From Fimbriimonadaceae bacterium (GTDB lineage: Bacteria; Armatimonadota; Fimbriimonadia; Fimbriimonadales; Fimbriimonadaceae), in NCBI GenBank assembly GCA_019638775.1, contig JAHBTD010000002.1, positions 1 through 64,000 on the forward strand: 64,000 nt of DNA. The letters are read 5' to 3'. A model generated the notes under the pieces. That model was not told the origin of the DNA. It did no database searches and saw only the letters and a program-made list of their open reading frames with translations. This document shows, piece after piece, positions 19-53,672 of this stretch. The position numbers and the translations under genes are program-made. How positions within the stretch are numbered: position 1 is the stretch's first letter; every line of letters begins with the position of its first letter.

Positions 19-53
19 AAAGCGCGAATAAATTCGCGCACTCCCAAAAAGGA
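19..53. repeat. AATAAATT-centred palindromic repeat, copy 1
   Basis: The core GCGCGAATAAATTCGCGC (22-39) is a perfect palindrome with 8-base arms around AA, followed by CACTCCCAAAAAGGA. The same unit occurs at 15319-15353 and, on the other strand, inside miaB at 52667-52698. It ends just before the promoter region of the alcohol dehydrogenase gene. Copies and palindrome are seen directly; function is unknown. Confidence 0.85.
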
Positions 54-1315: not shown

Positions 1316-1372
1316 CCCCCTGCCCCTACCCATCACCCCGACTTCGTCGTGGAGACAAGGAGGGGGGCCGGA
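1316..1372. repeat. Degenerate C-rich/G-rich hairpin repeat
   Basis: A C-rich left arm (from 1316) and a G-rich right arm (AAGGAGGGGGG) flank a small GAC-TTC-GTC hairpin. It resembles the CCCCTCCTC family but is less perfect. It abuts the end of the CsgG-like gene. Confidence 0.55.
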
Positions 1373-2621: not shown

Positions 2622-5600
2622 ATGAAAGTCCTCGTGATCGGCTCTGGTCCCATCGTCATCGGGCAAGCCGCCGAATTCGACTACGCAGGAACGCAAGCCT
2701 GCAAATCCCTGAAAGAAGAGGGCCACGAGGTCGTCCTCATCAACTCCAATCCCGCCACGATCATGACCGATCCCGGCGTGGCAGACGCGCTCTACATCGA
2801 GCCGCTGACCCCCGAATTCTGCGAAAGGGTGATCGCCCGCGAAAAGCCGGACGCCCTGCTCCCAACCCTTGGCGGACAGACGGGCTTGAACCTCGCGACG
2901 CAGCTCGCTGATCTGGGCATTCTTGAGAAGTACAGCGTCAAACTCCTCGGTACGCCGTTGAGCGCGATCCGAAAGGCTGAGGACAGGGAAGAGTTTCGAG
3001 CTTTGATGCGGGAGATCAAAGAGCCCGTCCCCGAGAGCTTTATCATCGAAACGCCTGAGCAGCTCAAGGCGATTTTGGACACGCGCATCCCCGACGAGAA
3101 CGGACGCCTGATCGACTTTCCCTATCCCCGAATCGTGCGCCCTGCGTATACCCTTGGGGGTACCGGAGGTGGCATCGCCCACACCCCGGAAGAGCTTTGG
3201 GAGATCGGGCAAAAGGGCTTGCAGCTTTCGATGCGCTCGCAGGTCATGATCGAGCGGTCGCTGCTCGGCTGGAAAGAGGTCGAGTATGAAGTGATGCGCG
3301 ACAGCAAAGGCAACTGCATCACGATCTGCAACATGGAGAACTTCGACCCGATGGGCGTACACACGGGCGACTCCATCGTCATCGCTCCGAGTCAAACCCT
3401 GAGCGATCTGGAGTATCACATGCTCCGAACGGCCTCGCTGAAGATCATCAGCTCGCTGGGCATCGAGGGCGGATGCAACGTTCAGCTTGCGATCAATCCG
3501 GACAGTTTCGACTACTACGTCATCGAGGTCAACCCCCGCGTTTCTCGATCCTCTGCGCTGGCCTCCAAAGCCACTGGCTATCCGATTGCCCGTGTGGCGG
3601 CGAAGATTGCGGTTGGCAAAACGCTGGACGAGATTGAGAATCAGGTCACGAAGTCGACCAAAGCCTGCTTCGAGCCGGCATTGGACTACTGCGTCGTCAA
3701 GATTCCGCGCTGGCCGTTTGACAAATTCACCACCGGCGACCGTTCGCTCTTTACGCAGATGAAGGCTACCGGCGAAGTCATGGCGATTGACCGCACCTTT
3801 GAAGCCGCGTTCCTGAAGGCGATCCGGGGTCTGGAGGTGAAGCAGAAGGATCTGCGGCATGCGAAGTTTATGGGAATGGAGGACGCACCGCTTGCCCATG
3901 CCATCCAATTCCCGACCGACGAGCGCCTTTGGGCGATTGCTGAGGGCTTGCGGCGCGGTTGGGGCGTAGACGAGGTCAACCGACTGAGCAACGTCGATAA
4001 GTGGTTCTTGACGAAGATGCAAGGATTGCTGGACGTTGAGCAGCGGTTGGTGAAGGCAAGGGAAACGAATGGGCAGTCGGAACCGATAGAAAGCCTGGTC
4101 CGCGAGGCTTTCTTGATTGGATTCCCATCGCCGACGATTATGAGCCTCCTTGGAATACCGCCTGGACTTGGTTTGTCAAGCTTTGTAAATGATATGCCGA
4201 CGGATCAGGAGTTTGAGACCGCACTTAAGGCTCACGCAGATTTCCCGAATCTATCAAGTGCTCAGCTAGAGGACTTTGTAAAGCGATTCTCAGACAAGGT
4301 TACTTATCATCCGTCGCCCTTCCTACAGTTTTTGAAATCGAACGAAATCTCTTTTAGCTCGGCTGAGTCCATCTTCTTATTTGAAAGCCTGAGAGCAGTT
4401 GAGCGCCTCAAGACCAAGCCCGTCTTCAAGATGGTCGATACATGTGCTGCCGAATTTGAATCCGCAACCCCTTACTACTACGGAACCTTCGAGCAGGATG
4501 ACGACGCCACCCGCAACCTGACCGAGCTTGAGGACACGCGCAAGACCGTGCTTGTGCTCGGGTCCGGTCCGATCCGTATCGGACAGGGGATCGAGTTCGA
4601 CTACTCGTGCGTCCACTGCGTGTGGGCGCTTGAGGAGATGGGCTATCGGGCGGTTATCGTGAACAACAACCCCGAAACCGTCTCCACCGACTTTGACACT
4701 GGCGACGGCCTTTACTTTGAGCCGGTGACGCTGGAAGACACGATGGACATCGTGCGACATGAGCAGCCGATTGGGGCGGTGGTGCAGTTTGGCGGACAGA
4801 CAGCCATCAATCTCGCTCAAGGCTTGCACGACCAGGATGTTTCAATTCTTGGCACCAGTGCGGCAGCAATTGCGATGGCGGAAGATCGCGACCTTTTTGA
4901 AAAGCTGATGACCGAATTGGATATCGCCAAGCCGGCGGGCAGAGCGGTGCGCTCTTACGCTGATGCCGTCAAAGTCGCCCAAGAGGTGGGCTATCCGGTG
5001 TTGGTCCGCCCGAGTTTCGTCCTTGGTGGGCGGGCGATGGAGATCGTTTTCGACGAAGAGCAGCTAGAGCATTTCTATAGGGAAGCGGAGGATGCCAACC
5101 CCGGACAGCCGGTCTTGGTGGATAAGTACCTGCTGGGGATTGAGGCCGAAGTCGATGTCATCTCCGACGGCGTGGACACGCTGGTGCCGGGAATCATGGA
5201 GCATATCGAGCGCGCAGGCGTTCATAGCGGCGACTCGATGGCGGTCTATCCGGCGGTGCATCTGAGCGAGGAGATCCAGGCACAGATGGTGGTAAGCGCA
5301 TGCAAGATTGCGCGGGCGTTGAAGATTAAGGGGTTGATGAATATTCAGTTCGTGATCGCGCCGGAGGGACCTCCACCCCCTACCCCTTCCACTCCATCGA
5401 CTACTGTTTCGAGCGACGGAACCCCCACCCCCCACCGCCTCCCCCTCGCTCCTTCGTCACAGGGGGAGGGGAAGTTGCGGGCCTACGTTCTTGAGGTCAA
5501 CCCTCGTGGATCGCGGACCGTGCCGTATATTTCCAAGGTGACGGGGATTCCGATGGTCGATCTGGCGACGCGGTGCATGATGGGCCAAACGCTCAAGGGA

Positions 5601-6311
5601 ATGGGTTATGGAAGCGGTTTGTGGACTCTGGATGCAGGTGGAACCGTGGAAGGGATGTCGCCCAAGCCGCATGCAAAGGGCCGGATTATTCCTGAAAACG
5701 CCTTTATCAACGGGGAGCAAAATCTCATCCCAGAACCCTCACTCTACGCCATTAAAGCACCCGTTTTTAGCTTCCAAAAACTCGGCAAGGTAGAGCCAAG
5801 CCTTGGCCCAGAGATGAAGTCTACTGGTGAAATACTTGGAGTCGATAAGACTTACGAATCCGCTCTTTACAAAGCCCTCATCGCAAGCCACATTAACTTC
5901 AAGGCCAAGGGTTACGTTCTCCTCACGGTCCAAGACCCCGACAAGCCGGGGGCGATTGAGATTGCACGGAAGCTAGTGGCGAAAGGGTTTAAGATTGCTG
6001 CAACGGGGGGCACTCACGATGCGCTGTCGGAAGCCGGGATTGAGAGCCGGTGGGTGATGAAGATCAGCGAGGGTGAGCCGAACCTTTTGGACCTGATCCT
6101 GAAGGCAGATGTGAGCCTGATGATCAACACGCCATCGAACGACCGTCAGGCGGAAGAGGAGGCCGCGCGCATCCGTCGGGCGTGCATCGAAACGGGCGTG
6201 GCGTGCGTGACGAATATCGACACGGCGAATGCCCTGGTGCGGGCATTGGATGTGTTTGAGAACCCGATGAAGTCGAGCTGTGCGCGGTTGGAAGAGTATT
6301 TTCCGGTGTGA
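2622..6311 (+). CDS. carB: Carbamoyl-phosphate synthase large subunit, with two insertions
   Basis: Makes carbamoyl phosphate from bicarbonate, ammonia and two ATP for pyrimidine and arginine synthesis. Both ATP-grasp halves are present (first starting VLVIGSGPIVIGQAAEFDYAG, second VLVLGSGPIRIGQGIEFDYS near residue 643), as is the C-terminal MGS-like allosteric domain (about 1098-1229). The length is 1229 aa against about 1070 usual. Two insertions explain this: about 80 residues in the oligomerisation region (about 475-590), and about 38 Pro/Ser/Thr-rich residues (about 914-951) immediately before the conserved VLEVNPRGSRTVP. The second is made of a repeat found between genes elsewhere in the window. 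There is no Shine-Dalgarno sequence. The small subunit carA is not in the window. Confidence 0.97.
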   Translation: MKVLVIGSGPIVIGQAAEFDYAGTQACKSLKEEGHEVVLINSNPATIMTDPGVADALYIEPLTPEFCERVIAREKPDALLPTLGGQTGLNLATQLADLGILEKYSVKLLGTPLSAIRKAEDREEFRALMREIKEPVPESFIIETPEQLKAILDTRIPDENGRLIDFPYPRIVRPAYTLGGTGGGIAHTPEELWEIGQKGLQLSMRSQVMIERSLLGWKEVEYEVMRDSKGNCITICNMENFDPMGVHTGDSIVIAPSQTLSDLEYHMLRTASLKIISSLGIEGGCNVQLAINPDSFDYYVIEVNPRVSRSSALASKATGYPIARVAAKIAVGKTLDEIENQVTKSTKACFEPALDYCVVKIPRWPFDKFTTGDRSLFTQMKATGEVMAIDRTFEAAFLKAIRGLEVKQKDLRHAKFMGMEDAPLAHAIQFPTDERLWAIAEGLRRGWGVDEVNRLSNVDKWFLTKMQGLLDVEQRLVKARETNGQSEPIESLVREAFLIGFPSPTIMSLLGIPPGLGLSSFVNDMPTDQEFETALKAHADFPNLSSAQLEDFVKRFSDKVTYHPSPFLQFLKSNEISFSSAESIFLFESLRAVERLKTKPVFKMVDTCAAEFESATPYYYGTFEQDDDATRNLTELEDTRKTVLVLGSGPIRIGQGIEFDYSCVHCVWALEEMGYRAVIVNNNPETVSTDFDTGDGLYFEPVTLEDTMDIVRHEQPIGAVVQFGGQTAINLAQGLHDQDVSILGTSAAAIAMAEDRDLFEKLMTELDIAKPAGRAVRSYADAVKVAQEVGYPVLVRPSFVLGGRAMEIVFDEEQLEHFYREAEDANPGQPVLVDKYLLGIEAEVDVISDGVDTLVPGIMEHIERAGVHSGDSMAVYPAVHLSEEIQAQMVVSACKIARALKIKGLMNIQFVIAPEGPPPPTPSTPSTTVSSDGTPTPHRLPLAPSSQGEGKLRAYVLEVNPRGSRTVPYISKVTGIPMVDLATRCMMGQTLKGMGYGSGLWTLDAGGTVEGMSPKPHAKGRIIPENAFINGEQNLIPEPSLYAIKAPVFSFQKLGKVEPSLGPEMKSTGEILGVDKTYESALYKALIASHINFKAKGYVLLTVQDPDKPGAIEIARKLVAKGFKIAATGGTHDALSEAGIESRWVMKISEGEPNLLDLILKADVSLMINTPSNDRQAEEEAARIRRACIETGVACVTNIDTANALVRALDVFENPMKSSCARLEEYFPV
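5361..5475. repeat. Repeat-derived in-frame insertion within carB
   Basis: This tract of C-rich then G-rich DNA (CCACCCCCTACCCCTTCC early, CAGGGGGAGGGG at the end) looks like the C-rich/G-rich hairpin repeats between genes at 1316-1372, 7040-7087 and inside miaB. It codes for a low-complexity segment inside an otherwise conserved ATP-grasp region and keeps frame. Confidence 0.75.
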
Positions 6312-7018: not shown

Positions 7019-7047
7019 AAATAATCTTCCGGATCTCCACCCCCTAA

Positions 7048-7087
7048 CCCCCTCCTCATCAAGTCTCCGACGTTGACGAGGAGGGGG
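7048..7087. repeat. CCCCTCCTC long hairpin repeat, copy 2
   Basis: Arms CCCCCTCCTC and GAGGAGGGGG are followed inside by TCAA/TTGA and GTC/GAC around loop TCC. Against copy 1 (1265-1302) the inner pairs have changed together: TTAA/TTAA to TCAA/TTGA and GCC/GGC to GTC/GAC. Confidence 0.85.
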
Positions 7088-15202: not shown

Positions 15203-15353
15203 TTCTCGCAAGGCGCTAAGACGCAAAGGGGGACTTGGTCATTGTGAACAATGACCCTCCAGGGGAAGGACACGTAAGTCGTTGAGAGGTCTCGACGCGA
15301 CGATAAATCGTCGCGTTTGAAAGCGCGAATAAATTCGCGCACTCCCAAAAGGA
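15203..15353. repeat. Composite repeat block with four elements
   Basis: In order: a CGCAAGGCGCTAAGACGCAAAG element (15203-15231), a CCTCCA-type hairpin with arms GGTCATTG/CAATGACC (15237-15256) followed by CTCCAGG, a palindrome CGCGACGATAAATCGTCGCG (15296-15315), and a copy of the AATAAATT palindrome repeat (15319-15353). The last two palindromes share an ATAAAT centre but differ in compensated arms. The block fills the gap between the SDR and E1 beta genes. Confidence 0.85.
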
Positions 15354-32002: not shown

Positions 32003-32073
32003 AGCGATCAAGAATTAGCGATCAGCTATCAGCTATCAGCGATCAGCTATCTGCGATCAACAATCCAAAATCC
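32003..32073. repeat. GATCAGCTATCAGC and ATCCAAA heptamer arrays
   Basis: Seven-base units of the GATCAGC/TATCAGC kind (32003-32059) are followed by ATCCAAA units. The same two families occur inside miaB. Confidence 0.85.
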
Positions 32074-51732: not shown

Positions 51733-53544
51733 TCAAATTAGCTGGCCCTTCAAGCCCCACAAGAACGACTCTTCCAGCTTCACTTCCACAAGCTGCCCGA
51801 TCAGGGTTTCGGGTTCGGCAGGAGCAGGGAAGTGCACCATCTTAAACTCTCGACTGTAGCCTTTCAACAGACTCGGGTTCTTGGGTGACGGGCCTTCCAC
51901 CAAGACCTCAACCGTCTGCCCGACACATGCTTCATTTCTCTCAATCGTGATCGAATTCTGTAGGTCGCTAAGGACCTTCAATCGTGACTGCTTGAGCGCA
52001 TACGGCAGCTGCTCCATCTCAGCGGCGGGAGTGCCCGGCCGGGTGGAGTAGATGAAAATGTAGGCCCCGTCGAACCGGACCTCACGCACCATCTCCAGCG
52101 TTTTCTCGAACTGCTCCTCGGTCTCGCCGGGGAAGCCGACGATGATGTCGGTGGTGATGCCGACGTCGGGCACGGCTGCGCGCAGGTCCTTCACGATCTC
52201 CAAAAACGACTCGGCGGTGTAGAGCCGGTGCATCGCCTTGAGCATGTCGTTGTCGCCCGATTGCAGCGGCAAGTGAACGTGCTCCATGACCTTCGGGTTG
52301 TCGCGGATGCATTCGATGAGTTCTGCGGTGAAATCGCGTGGATAAGGGCTGGTGTAGCGGATGCGCTGAAGACTGGGGAGGCCTTCGAGCAGCCAAAGGA
52401 GTTTGGCAAATGGCACGCGGCCTTCGGCGAGGTTCTTGCCGTAGGAGTTGACGGTCTGGCCCAAAAGGGTGACCTCTTTGACTCCATTCTCGCTGAGCGC
52501 GTAAACCTCGGCGACAATGTCCTCGGTCGGGCGGCTGCGCTCGCGTCCGCGGGTGGTGGGGACGATGCAGAAGGTGCAGAACTTGTCACAACCGTATTGG
52601 ATGGGGACGAAGGCTTTGATTTTGGATTTTGGATTTTGGATTTTGGATTGGGCTTTGGTGTGTGCGTTTTGGGAGTGCGCGAATTTATTCGCGCTTTCGC
52701 TATCGTTGTCACCCCTCCCCGGTTCGCTTTGCTCACCGACCCTCCCCCTCAAGGGGAGGGGGTTTAACTCTTGATTCGCGATTGCTGATTGTTGATTGCT
52801 GATTGCTGATGGCTCGCTTACCCCACCCCCAACCCCCTCCCCATTTTCGCTTCGCTCAAACAAGGAGGGGGCTCCGGGATTCCGATTTCCGATCTCCGAT
52901 TTCTGATTTCCCGCATTCTGATCGCCGATAGCCGATAGCTGATTGCCCAGGTTCCGGTCTCCGATCTGCGATCTCTGATCTCCAGCGCCCTGATCTCCGA
53001 TAGCCGACAGCTGATCGCTCAGAGTAGGCGCATAAGGGACCTCTCCATCAACCCTTGGTGCCACCAAACGTTGCGGGATGTCGGTCACCACCGCGCCCTT
53101 TCGTTCGGGAAGATCGAGCCGGGTTTGGAATCTGCGGGTTTGGGCGGCCTCTTCAACCAGTCCAGGAATCGTGGAGAGTTGCCCAGTGCCAACCACAAAG
53201 TCGACAAAATGCGCTCGCTGATGAATCTCTTTGGCTCGGAGCTGGGCCATGCAACCGGCTACGCCGACGATGATCTCGGGCCTTTGCTTTTTCAGCAATG
53301 CCAACTCGCCCAACATTGAAAACGCTTTGTCCTCTGGCTTCTTGCGCACTGAGCACGTGTTCAGCAAAATCACATGTGCGCTCATCATATCGCCAGCGGG
53401 CTCAAACCCTATCTGCTGCAGATACAGCCCGATCTGCTCAGAATCCTCTTCGTTCATCTGGCACCCCCAGGTTTGAATGAAGTAGGTTCCGCGACGGGCC
53501 TTTGGGCGTCCGGACTTTGCAACGGTAAGCGGCGAAATGGTCAT
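51733..53544 (-). CDS. miaB: tRNA-2-methylthio-N6-dimethylallyladenosine synthase with large internal insertion
   Basis: Radical-SAM methylthiotransferase that modifies A37 of tRNAs reading UNN codons. From Met of MTISPLTV it has 603 aa (two earlier Met, at 53589 and 53622, are possible). The N-terminal MTTase domain keeps its three cysteines (C28 in TWGCQMN, C64 in NTCSV, C98 in AGCMAQ), the radical-SAM C-x3-C-x2-C is at 319, 323 and 326 (YGCDKFCTFC), and a C-terminal TRAM domain is present. The usual size is 440-470. Residues about 175-310 are an insertion made of repeat DNA, in frame, between the two domains. The catalytic parts seem intact. Confidence 0.96.
   Translation of the reverse strand: MTISPLTVAKSGRPKARRGTYFIQTWGCQMNEEDSEQIGLYLQQIGFEPAGDMMSAHVILLNTCSVRKKPEDKAFSMLGELALLKKQRPEIIVGVAGCMAQLRAKEIHQRAHFVDFVVGTGQLSTIPGLVEEAAQTRRFQTRLDLPERKGAVVTDIPQRLVAPRVDGEVPYAPTLSDQLSAIGDQGAGDQRSQIGDRNLGNQLSAIGDQNAGNQKSEIGNRNPGAPSLFERSENGEGVGGGVSEPSAISNQQSAIANQELNPLPLRGRVGEQSEPGRGDNDSESANKFAHSQNAHTKAQSKIQNPKSKIKAFVPIQYGCDKFCTFCIVPTTRGRERSRPTEDIVAEVYALSENGVKEVTLLGQTVNSYGKNLAEGRVPFAKLLWLLEGLPSLQRIRYTSPYPRDFTAELIECIRDNPKVMEHVHLPLQSGDNDMLKAMHRLYTAESFLEIVKDLRAAVPDVGITTDIIVGFPGETEEQFEKTLEMVREVRFDGAYIFIYSTRPGTPAAEMEQLPYALKQSRLKVLSDLQNSITIERNEACVGQTVEVLVEGPSPKNPSLLKGYSREFKMVHFPAPAEPETLIGQLVEVKLEESFLWGLKGQLI
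52615..53022. repeat. Mosaic of intergenic repeats inside miaB
   Basis: Read on the miaB strand: GATCAG/GATCGG-type heptamers (53022-52878), a C-rich/G-rich hairpin element (about 52873-52820), further ATCAGCA heptamers (52812-52768), a second C-rich/G-rich element (52766-52712), one AATAAATT palindrome copy (52698-52667) and ATCCAAA heptamers (52650-52615). Each matches repeats found between other genes. The sum keeps frame and has no stop. Confidence 0.93.
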
Positions 53545-53672
53545 GTTTAAGTTCGATTCAGGTTCAAAAGGATACCCTTTGAAGCTCATGAGACAACGGG
53601 CCGCTCGACGGTCTGGTTTCATGCGAAGAAAACAATCGCTGACTCATCGCTGTGAAAATGGCTTATGATAGA

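Follow-up and report, generated by a model that had tools for sequence, protein, structure and literature searches.

The miaB gene and its insert

The window, by which we mean the whole stretch of 64,000 nucleotides that was analysed, comes from a Fimbriimonadaceae (Armatimonadota) genome and carries a miaB gene with a long insert between the parts encoding the MTTase and radical-SAM domains (Table 1). An ATG at 53544 is favoured as the start, other in-frame starts lying upstream at 53589 and 53622. The product scores 493 bits against the MiaB equivalog model of NCBIfam (TIGR01574; cut-off 355), and the match is broken into two stretches around the insert, the MTTase domain ending near residue 161 and the radical-SAM domain beginning near residue 307. 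A sequence-only reading of the same DNA had described an insert of 136 codons at 52615-53022; its place is borne out, and its length is close to the net extra length of about 142 codons found here. The edges of the insert are uncertain by a few codons, and repeat sequence continues to 52615.

Table 1. Features of the window, with positions counted from its first nucleotide.
Feature	Position	Strand	Basis
miaB, tRNA-2-methylthio-N6-isopentenyladenosine synthase with insert	51733-53544	-	TIGR01574, alignment of 30 relatives, MiaB structures
MTTase (UPF0004) domain, residues ~18-160, Cys27/Cys63/Cys97	53062-53490	-	invariant alignment columns
Radical-SAM and C-terminal domains, residues 309-602, Cys318/Cys322/Cys325	51736-52617	-	alignment, structure match
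miaB insert, about 142 codons, residues ~162-303	52633-53058	-	absent in 109 relatives, predicted disordered (AlphaFold2)
Insert start, no repeat family found	53023-53058	-	not repeated in 1.26-Mb sample
ATC-phased heptamer block (GATCAGC type then GGAGATC type), copy 1	52952-53022	-	TRF, genome search
ATC-phased heptamer block, copy 2, 82% alike to copy 1	52880-52950	-	TRF, genome search
C/G-rich hairpin element 1	52818-52879	-	90% identical copy in stretch L207, 6 other places; folds as hairpin
AGCAATC heptamer array	52771-52817	-	TRF, genome search
C/G-rich hairpin element 2	52709-52770	-	92% identical copy in stretch L199, 6 other places
AATAAATT palindrome element (GCGCGAATAAATTCGCGCACTCCC)	52668-52708	-	about a dozen other copies; 31/31 nt identical at 15319-15349
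ATCCAAA heptamer array encoding IQNPKSK	52615-52650	-	44 other places; TRF 4.6 copies, 100% match
AATAAATT palindrome, intergenic copy	19-53	+	genome search
AATAAATT palindrome, intergenic copy	15319-15353	+	genome search
Intergenic heptamer array, GATCAGC type then in-phase ATCCAAA	32003-32076	+	TRF, pattern search
Intergenic C/G-rich element	1316-1372		direct reading, genome search
Intergenic C/G-rich element	7040-7087		direct reading, genome search
carB (carbamoyl-phosphate synthase large chain), second in-frame case in window	2622-6311	+	Pfam CPSase_L_D2 and others
carB insert, about 37 codons, with C/G-rich hairpin element at 5421-5472	5367-5477	+	five same-family relatives

The comparison of miaB across related genomes that the earlier reading had proposed as a check found the insert at none of 109 related loci, from Fimbriimonadaceae and their relatives. 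The linker between the compared positions is mostly of two residues and at most eight in these loci, versus 144 here; where relatives read IPQRxVxRxxKLKAFVPIQYG, the present protein reads IPQRLVA, then the insert, then KIKAFVPIQYG. The host genus is represented in the comparison set by one genome only. Across the insert the miaB frame contains no stop, versus four and five in the other two sense frames and four, nine and four in the antisense frames, which upholds the claim of an in-frame insertion that adds no stop. The chance of an open miaB frame, as estimated from the other sense frames, is about 1%, to which a further factor of 1/3 for length would still apply. As the insert breaks up an otherwise conserved enzyme, it might be supposed that the segment never stays in the final protein, being spliced out as an intron, bypassed in translation or excised as an intein. 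However, an excised segment needs neither an open frame, nor a length divisible by three, nor a protein-safe orientation, and all three are observed; Pfam and NCBIfam searches of the affected proteins gave no intein or intron feature. Removal is therefore considered highly improbable.

The AlphaFold2 prediction for MiaB (30 sequences) has pLDDT values of 85-98 over most of the core and of 20-35 at residues 181-305, where the insert is predicted to be disordered and to form no folded domain, in agreement with the earlier description of the segment as not protein-like. All six catalytic cysteines (27, 63, 97, 318, 322 and 325) are retained, as had been claimed, and are invariant in an alignment of 30 relatives. 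The core matches the solved MiaB structures 7mjv to 7mjz with E values down to 4e-42; their MTTase, radical-SAM and C-terminal domains align over it, but they are without the 142-residue insert. This MiaB sits on a terminal branch of ordinary length (0.229 versus a median of 0.221 for the others), and no second MiaB was found in the genome, the remaining matches being paralogues of at most 38% identity. From the intact predicted core, the invariant cysteines and the ordinary branch length we infer that this MiaB is folded and probably active. An insertion of 142 codons is often inactivating, and the gene could on that account be seen as a decaying pseudogene, but the invariant positions and cysteines that it has kept, its ordinary rate, the lack of a second MiaB and an insert frame that chance would rarely leave open make decay very improbable.

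Repeat families within the insert and their copies

In the sense of miaB, the insert begins with about 36 nt that match no repeat family found, followed by two copies of a 72-nt heptamer block, which constitute an internal duplication, and then by hairpin element 1, the AGCAATC array and hairpin element 2. Its 3' part consists of the palindrome, 18 nt that fit no family, and an ATCCAAA array of four and a half units. The palindrome, which in this sense is GCGCGAATAAATTCGCGC with an ACTCCC tail, thus lies between the second hairpin and the 18-nt stretch. Seven of the nine pieces recur in 1.26 Mb of the same genome (E<1e-3), at 5, 33, 6, 4, 6, 12 and 44 other places respectively; the two without another copy at this threshold in the 1.26 Mb are the first 39 nt (53023-53061) and the 18 nt at 52650-52667. 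A search with the whole insert gave 57 genomic matches, counting its own. There are 139 occurrences of the GATCAGC double heptamer versus 0 of a reversed control, and by pattern the AATAAATT palindrome has ten close copies, that in miaB being the sole one in a gene. Hairpin element 2 also has weak matches in Rhizobium and further replicons, and a plasmid collection yielded short hairpin or heptamer matches only and no protein match. A literature search on Armatimonadetes and repeats found nothing on that phylum.

It had been suggested that at least four intergenic repeat families are joined at this one spot, and a pattern test gives four (code ABCD). The copies cited for comparison at 19-53, 15319-15353 and 32003-32073 are indeed present, as are those at 1316-1372 and 7040-7087, which are looser C-rich relatives. 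Among dispersed copies the palindrome is near-identical, the hairpins are about 90% identical and the heptamer arrays are phase-locked; where ATCCAAA and GATC-type heptamers are neighbours on the same strand, ATCCAAA is the 3' one in all 17 cases. Neither an inverted repeat pair spanning the insert nor a 150-nt palindrome was found.

Two Y1_Tnp-like genes were found, near which (about 1.5 kb) resemblance to the insert is limited to bare C-rich 7-mers. The palindrome and heptamer families of the insert are absent within about 1.5 kb of either gene, and no link between a transposase and the elements of the insert, such as RAYT-driven mobility, was seen. One of the two, a Y1-transposase-like ORF (L247:1341-2115), has other inverted repeats, CCCTCCATAAC, on both sides, resembling a RAYT with its own REP elements.

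Repeats inside other genes and their orientation

Sixty stretches of 20 kb were examined together with the window for heptamer arrays and for parts of genes that match intergenic DNA, amounting to 1.264 Mb or 29% of the genome. This sample holds 159 heptamer arrays, of which 116 are intergenic though genes make up 84% of the sequence, and 30 lie strictly within 13 called genes. When heptamer and hairpin families are considered together, 22 of about 1065 called genes contain internal repeat-derived segments, a proportion biased upward because several of the stretches were picked for matches to the insert. Genes were called by our own codon-usage script, which is ORF-based and for this reason under-counts frame-broken insertions; short in-gene pattern matches (10-13 nt), which are probably due to chance, were left out of the 22. 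The affected genes include carB, argS, leuS, metG, mutS, trmFO, glcD, hisH and lpxK, as well as those for GH20, GH38, GH65 and GH127 enzymes, a rhamnosidase, an FGGY kinase, a LUD protein and a CCG protein. The earlier idea of one tolerated linker is supported in that four families sit in frame in the linker of miaB, and is not supported in so far as it made miaB special, since repeats are also found in carB, argS, leuS, metG, mutS, trmFO and glcD, among others.

Comparison with relatives places several of these segments. In carB, the match to five same-family relatives runs up to residues 913-915 and resumes at 953-954, and in the relatives only 3-7 nt separate the two parts. For mutS, leuS and trmFO, relatives match both flanks and have little or nothing between them where the inserts sit here; a few carry extra sequence of another kind close to the leuS site. 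In mutS (L055:9388-12177, - strand), heptamer repeats add about 73 residues immediately ahead of the ATPase domain, and one may speculate that a mismatch repair weakened by this insert would favour repeat growth. Three separate heptamer inserts are found in argS (L048:7454-9916, + strand), and three repeat sites in trmFO. None of ten ORF pairs flanking arrays shares one Pfam family, as a gene split by an array might; five pairs were decidable, and these have different Pfam families on the two sides.

Several further observations were made at these loci. The halves of CarB are separate ORFs in the five same-family relatives and one ORF here. Residues 209-353 of ArgS (about 145) are without a match in relatives and are not built of these repeats. 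Another in-gene repeat family, the GGGCGAGACGCCC palindromes (L223:16341-16432, L228:15268-15359 and L053:14762-14798), encodes peptides such as HGRDAHAT and TGVPPV; literature searches on the encoded peptides IQNPKSK and HGRDAHAT found nothing. At L065:17157-17914 a heptamer array separates a gene for a 23S rRNA intervening-sequence-type protein from the neighbouring isocitrate dehydrogenase C-terminal ORF.

The spread of these segments bears on two other accounts of the miaB insert. An assembly or binning artefact might be suspected in an assembly of 126 contigs, in which repeats promote misassembly, but the miaB locus lies inside a 1.16-Mb contig and four large contigs show the same pattern, with frames kept, in 22 genes, so that an artefact is scarcely credible. 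Co-option, by which the disordered segment or its RNA hairpins would regulate MiaB or bind a partner, could be favoured by the presence of repeats in several RNA-related enzymes (MiaB, TrmFO, ArgS, LeuS and MetG) and by the view that Borg repeats give functional disordered regions (PMC9879509). Against this, the mixtures of repeats and their places differ from gene to gene, many of the affected genes encode sugar or lipid enzymes, and the insert as a whole shows nothing out of the ordinary in its RNA folding (z -1.5); we regard co-option as improbable.

The orientation of the arrays within genes was informative. GATC-type heptamers have TGA stops in the antisense reading, and these stops alone would lead one to expect the sense orientation of such arrays within genes. 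A pure ATCCAAA array, by contrast, has no stop in any of the six frames, reading IQNPKSK in sense and FGFWILD in antisense. Within genes ATCCAAA arrays are nevertheless sense in 13 cases to 0 (11 of 11 genes), while between codirectional genes five are on the same strand and 12 on the opposite one (Fisher p 9e-5; by gene 2.5e-4). Only part of this 13:0 ratio is independent, because ATCCAAA arrays in composite nests are coupled to the orientation of the stop-bearing GATC heptamers; however, where a GATC-type array is slight or missing (argS site 1, metG, GH65 and the L198 ORF), the orientation is likewise always sense. In their reading frames the inserts are hydrophilic, with GRAVY values of -0.4 to -1.9, whereas most ATCCAAA antisense readings are hydrophobic. 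Strand-linked insertion was considered as a cause of the sense orientation and is not supported, the intergenic ratio being 19:24. The best reading of the sequence data is that selection at the protein level would have kept soluble, stop-free orientations in tolerant loops.

Across the phylum, exact ATCCAAA triplets are present in five of 291 genomes, of which three lie outside the Fimbriimonadaceae; 23 stretches of IMG/VR contigs contain them too. A distant relative (G226) has ATCCAAA arrays inside genes for ValS, UvrA and a BadF-type ATPase, and a viral contig contains a Mu-like phage portal gene (L168:152-1474, + strand) with a sense array. Outside the present genome, 11 in-gene arrays are sense and three antisense, two of the latter being halves of inverted pairs. 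In one further genome (G118; L229-L236) ATCCAAA arrays often occur as inverted pairs about 70-120 nt apart, which look like the ends of a small hairpin element.

Clustering of repeats raises the question of whether one insertion prepares the way for others. The earlier reading had entertained such a receptive site, in which a first repeat would draw more by recombination, slippage and insertion into repeats; this is a stronger version of the explanation that we prefer. It accords with the four families and the 72-nt internal duplication at a single miaB site, and with the number of affected genes that have two or more separate sites, five of 22 compared with 0.55 expected (maximum of four in 2000 simulations). 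Composite sites, however, are not significantly commoner in genes (7 of 47) than between genes (11 of 141; p 0.16, pattern test), and in intergenic DNA the families gather weakly and mostly near chance, two GATC-type heptamers excepted. Unequal tolerance among genes would account for the same clustering, and the excess of multi-site genes fits either cause alike. We consider a receptive site possible, though doubtful.

Interpretation and comparison with known systems

The explanation that we favour, with a probability of roughly 80%, is that dispersed small repeats landed or expanded in frame in the linker of miaB, and that selection at the protein level retained the tolerated outcome here and genome-wide. 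ATC-phased heptamer arrays, C/G-rich hairpins and the short palindrome may have arrived through the mobility of small elements together with slippage or unequal recombination of arrays. The translated insert would remain in the protein and loop out of a folded, probably active MiaB. Most insertions within genes would be purged, leaving those in tolerant loops and in protein-safe orientation, and the miaB insert would have been kept because its length is a multiple of three, its frame is open and its peptide is hydrophilic and predicted to be disordered. The first 36 nt of the insert, which fall in no repeat family found, count against this explanation. It could be argued further that certain bacterial heptamer repeats, ATCCAAA foremost, are a selfish DNA compatible with protein, which invades conserved genes repeatedly and of which each insertion may seed more. 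Such repeated invasion of the interiors of conserved genes would follow from six stop-free frames and the soluble sense linker IQNPKSK; several lineages and a Mu-like phage portal gene would have been invaded, and essential enzymes would slowly gain disordered loops. We put this forward as a tentative and rather doubtful suggestion.

If the inserts are translated, non-coding repeats would have become protein sequence in housekeeping enzymes of a bacterium outside the Rickettsiales. The enzymes concerned are aminoacyl-tRNA synthetases, MutS, CarB, TrmFO and MiaB, with essential ones among them, and the footprint of selection may be read in orientation and hydropathy. It seems that working proteins can accommodate small selfish repeats as floppy loops; this would offer a natural experiment on the amount and place of disordered sequence that a working enzyme tolerates, and possibly a route by which disordered loops in bacterial proteins originate. 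The findings also counsel caution against dismissing such segments as assembly or annotation errors.

Among known systems, the Rickettsia palindromic elements (RPEs; Ogata et al. 2000, 2002) are found both in intergenic DNA and, in frame, in housekeeping genes that are otherwise unrelated, and a structure compatible with the host protein has been proposed for them (PMC10969869). The repeats described here share this double occurrence, intergenic and in frame within unrelated genes. An RPE, however, is a palindrome of about 150 nt with its own conserved peptide, present as one element per insertion in obligate intracellular hosts, whereas heptamer arrays and hairpins of 30-60 nt stand here in varying order, with several families stacked, in a Fimbriimonadaceae genome. 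The present repeats work like RPEs and yet are not RPEs, since a palindrome of about 150 nt with its own peptide was sought and not found.

Heptamer repeats have been described in bacteria before, TAACTGA in Beggiatoaceae and cyanobacteria (PMC4679880) and GGGAATC/GGGGATT in Xanthomonas and Nostoc (PMC4692102). The arrays in this genome resemble them in having tandem units of 7 nt, a mostly intergenic and patchy distribution and one orientation with stops, and, as 159 arrays in 1.264 Mb, they show the dispersal of tandem 7-nt units in many copies that is typical of STRR-like repeats. In Beggiatoaceae most heptamers in ORFs fall at the ends of proteins or within hypothetical ones, and interior insertions were expected to be usually deleterious (PMC4679880); here the repeats stand inside conserved enzymes and form mixed nests. 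Borg tandem repeats in ORFs encode disordered regions with the frame kept, but their unit length is divisible by three and they are formed newly in place (PMC9879509), while the unit here, of 7 nt, is no multiple of three and the families seen in genes are intergenic as well. What is new, in comparison with these systems, is the combination: conserved housekeeping enzymes contain heptamers and hairpins of several families, and the orientation of these repeats bears a footprint of selection at the protein level.
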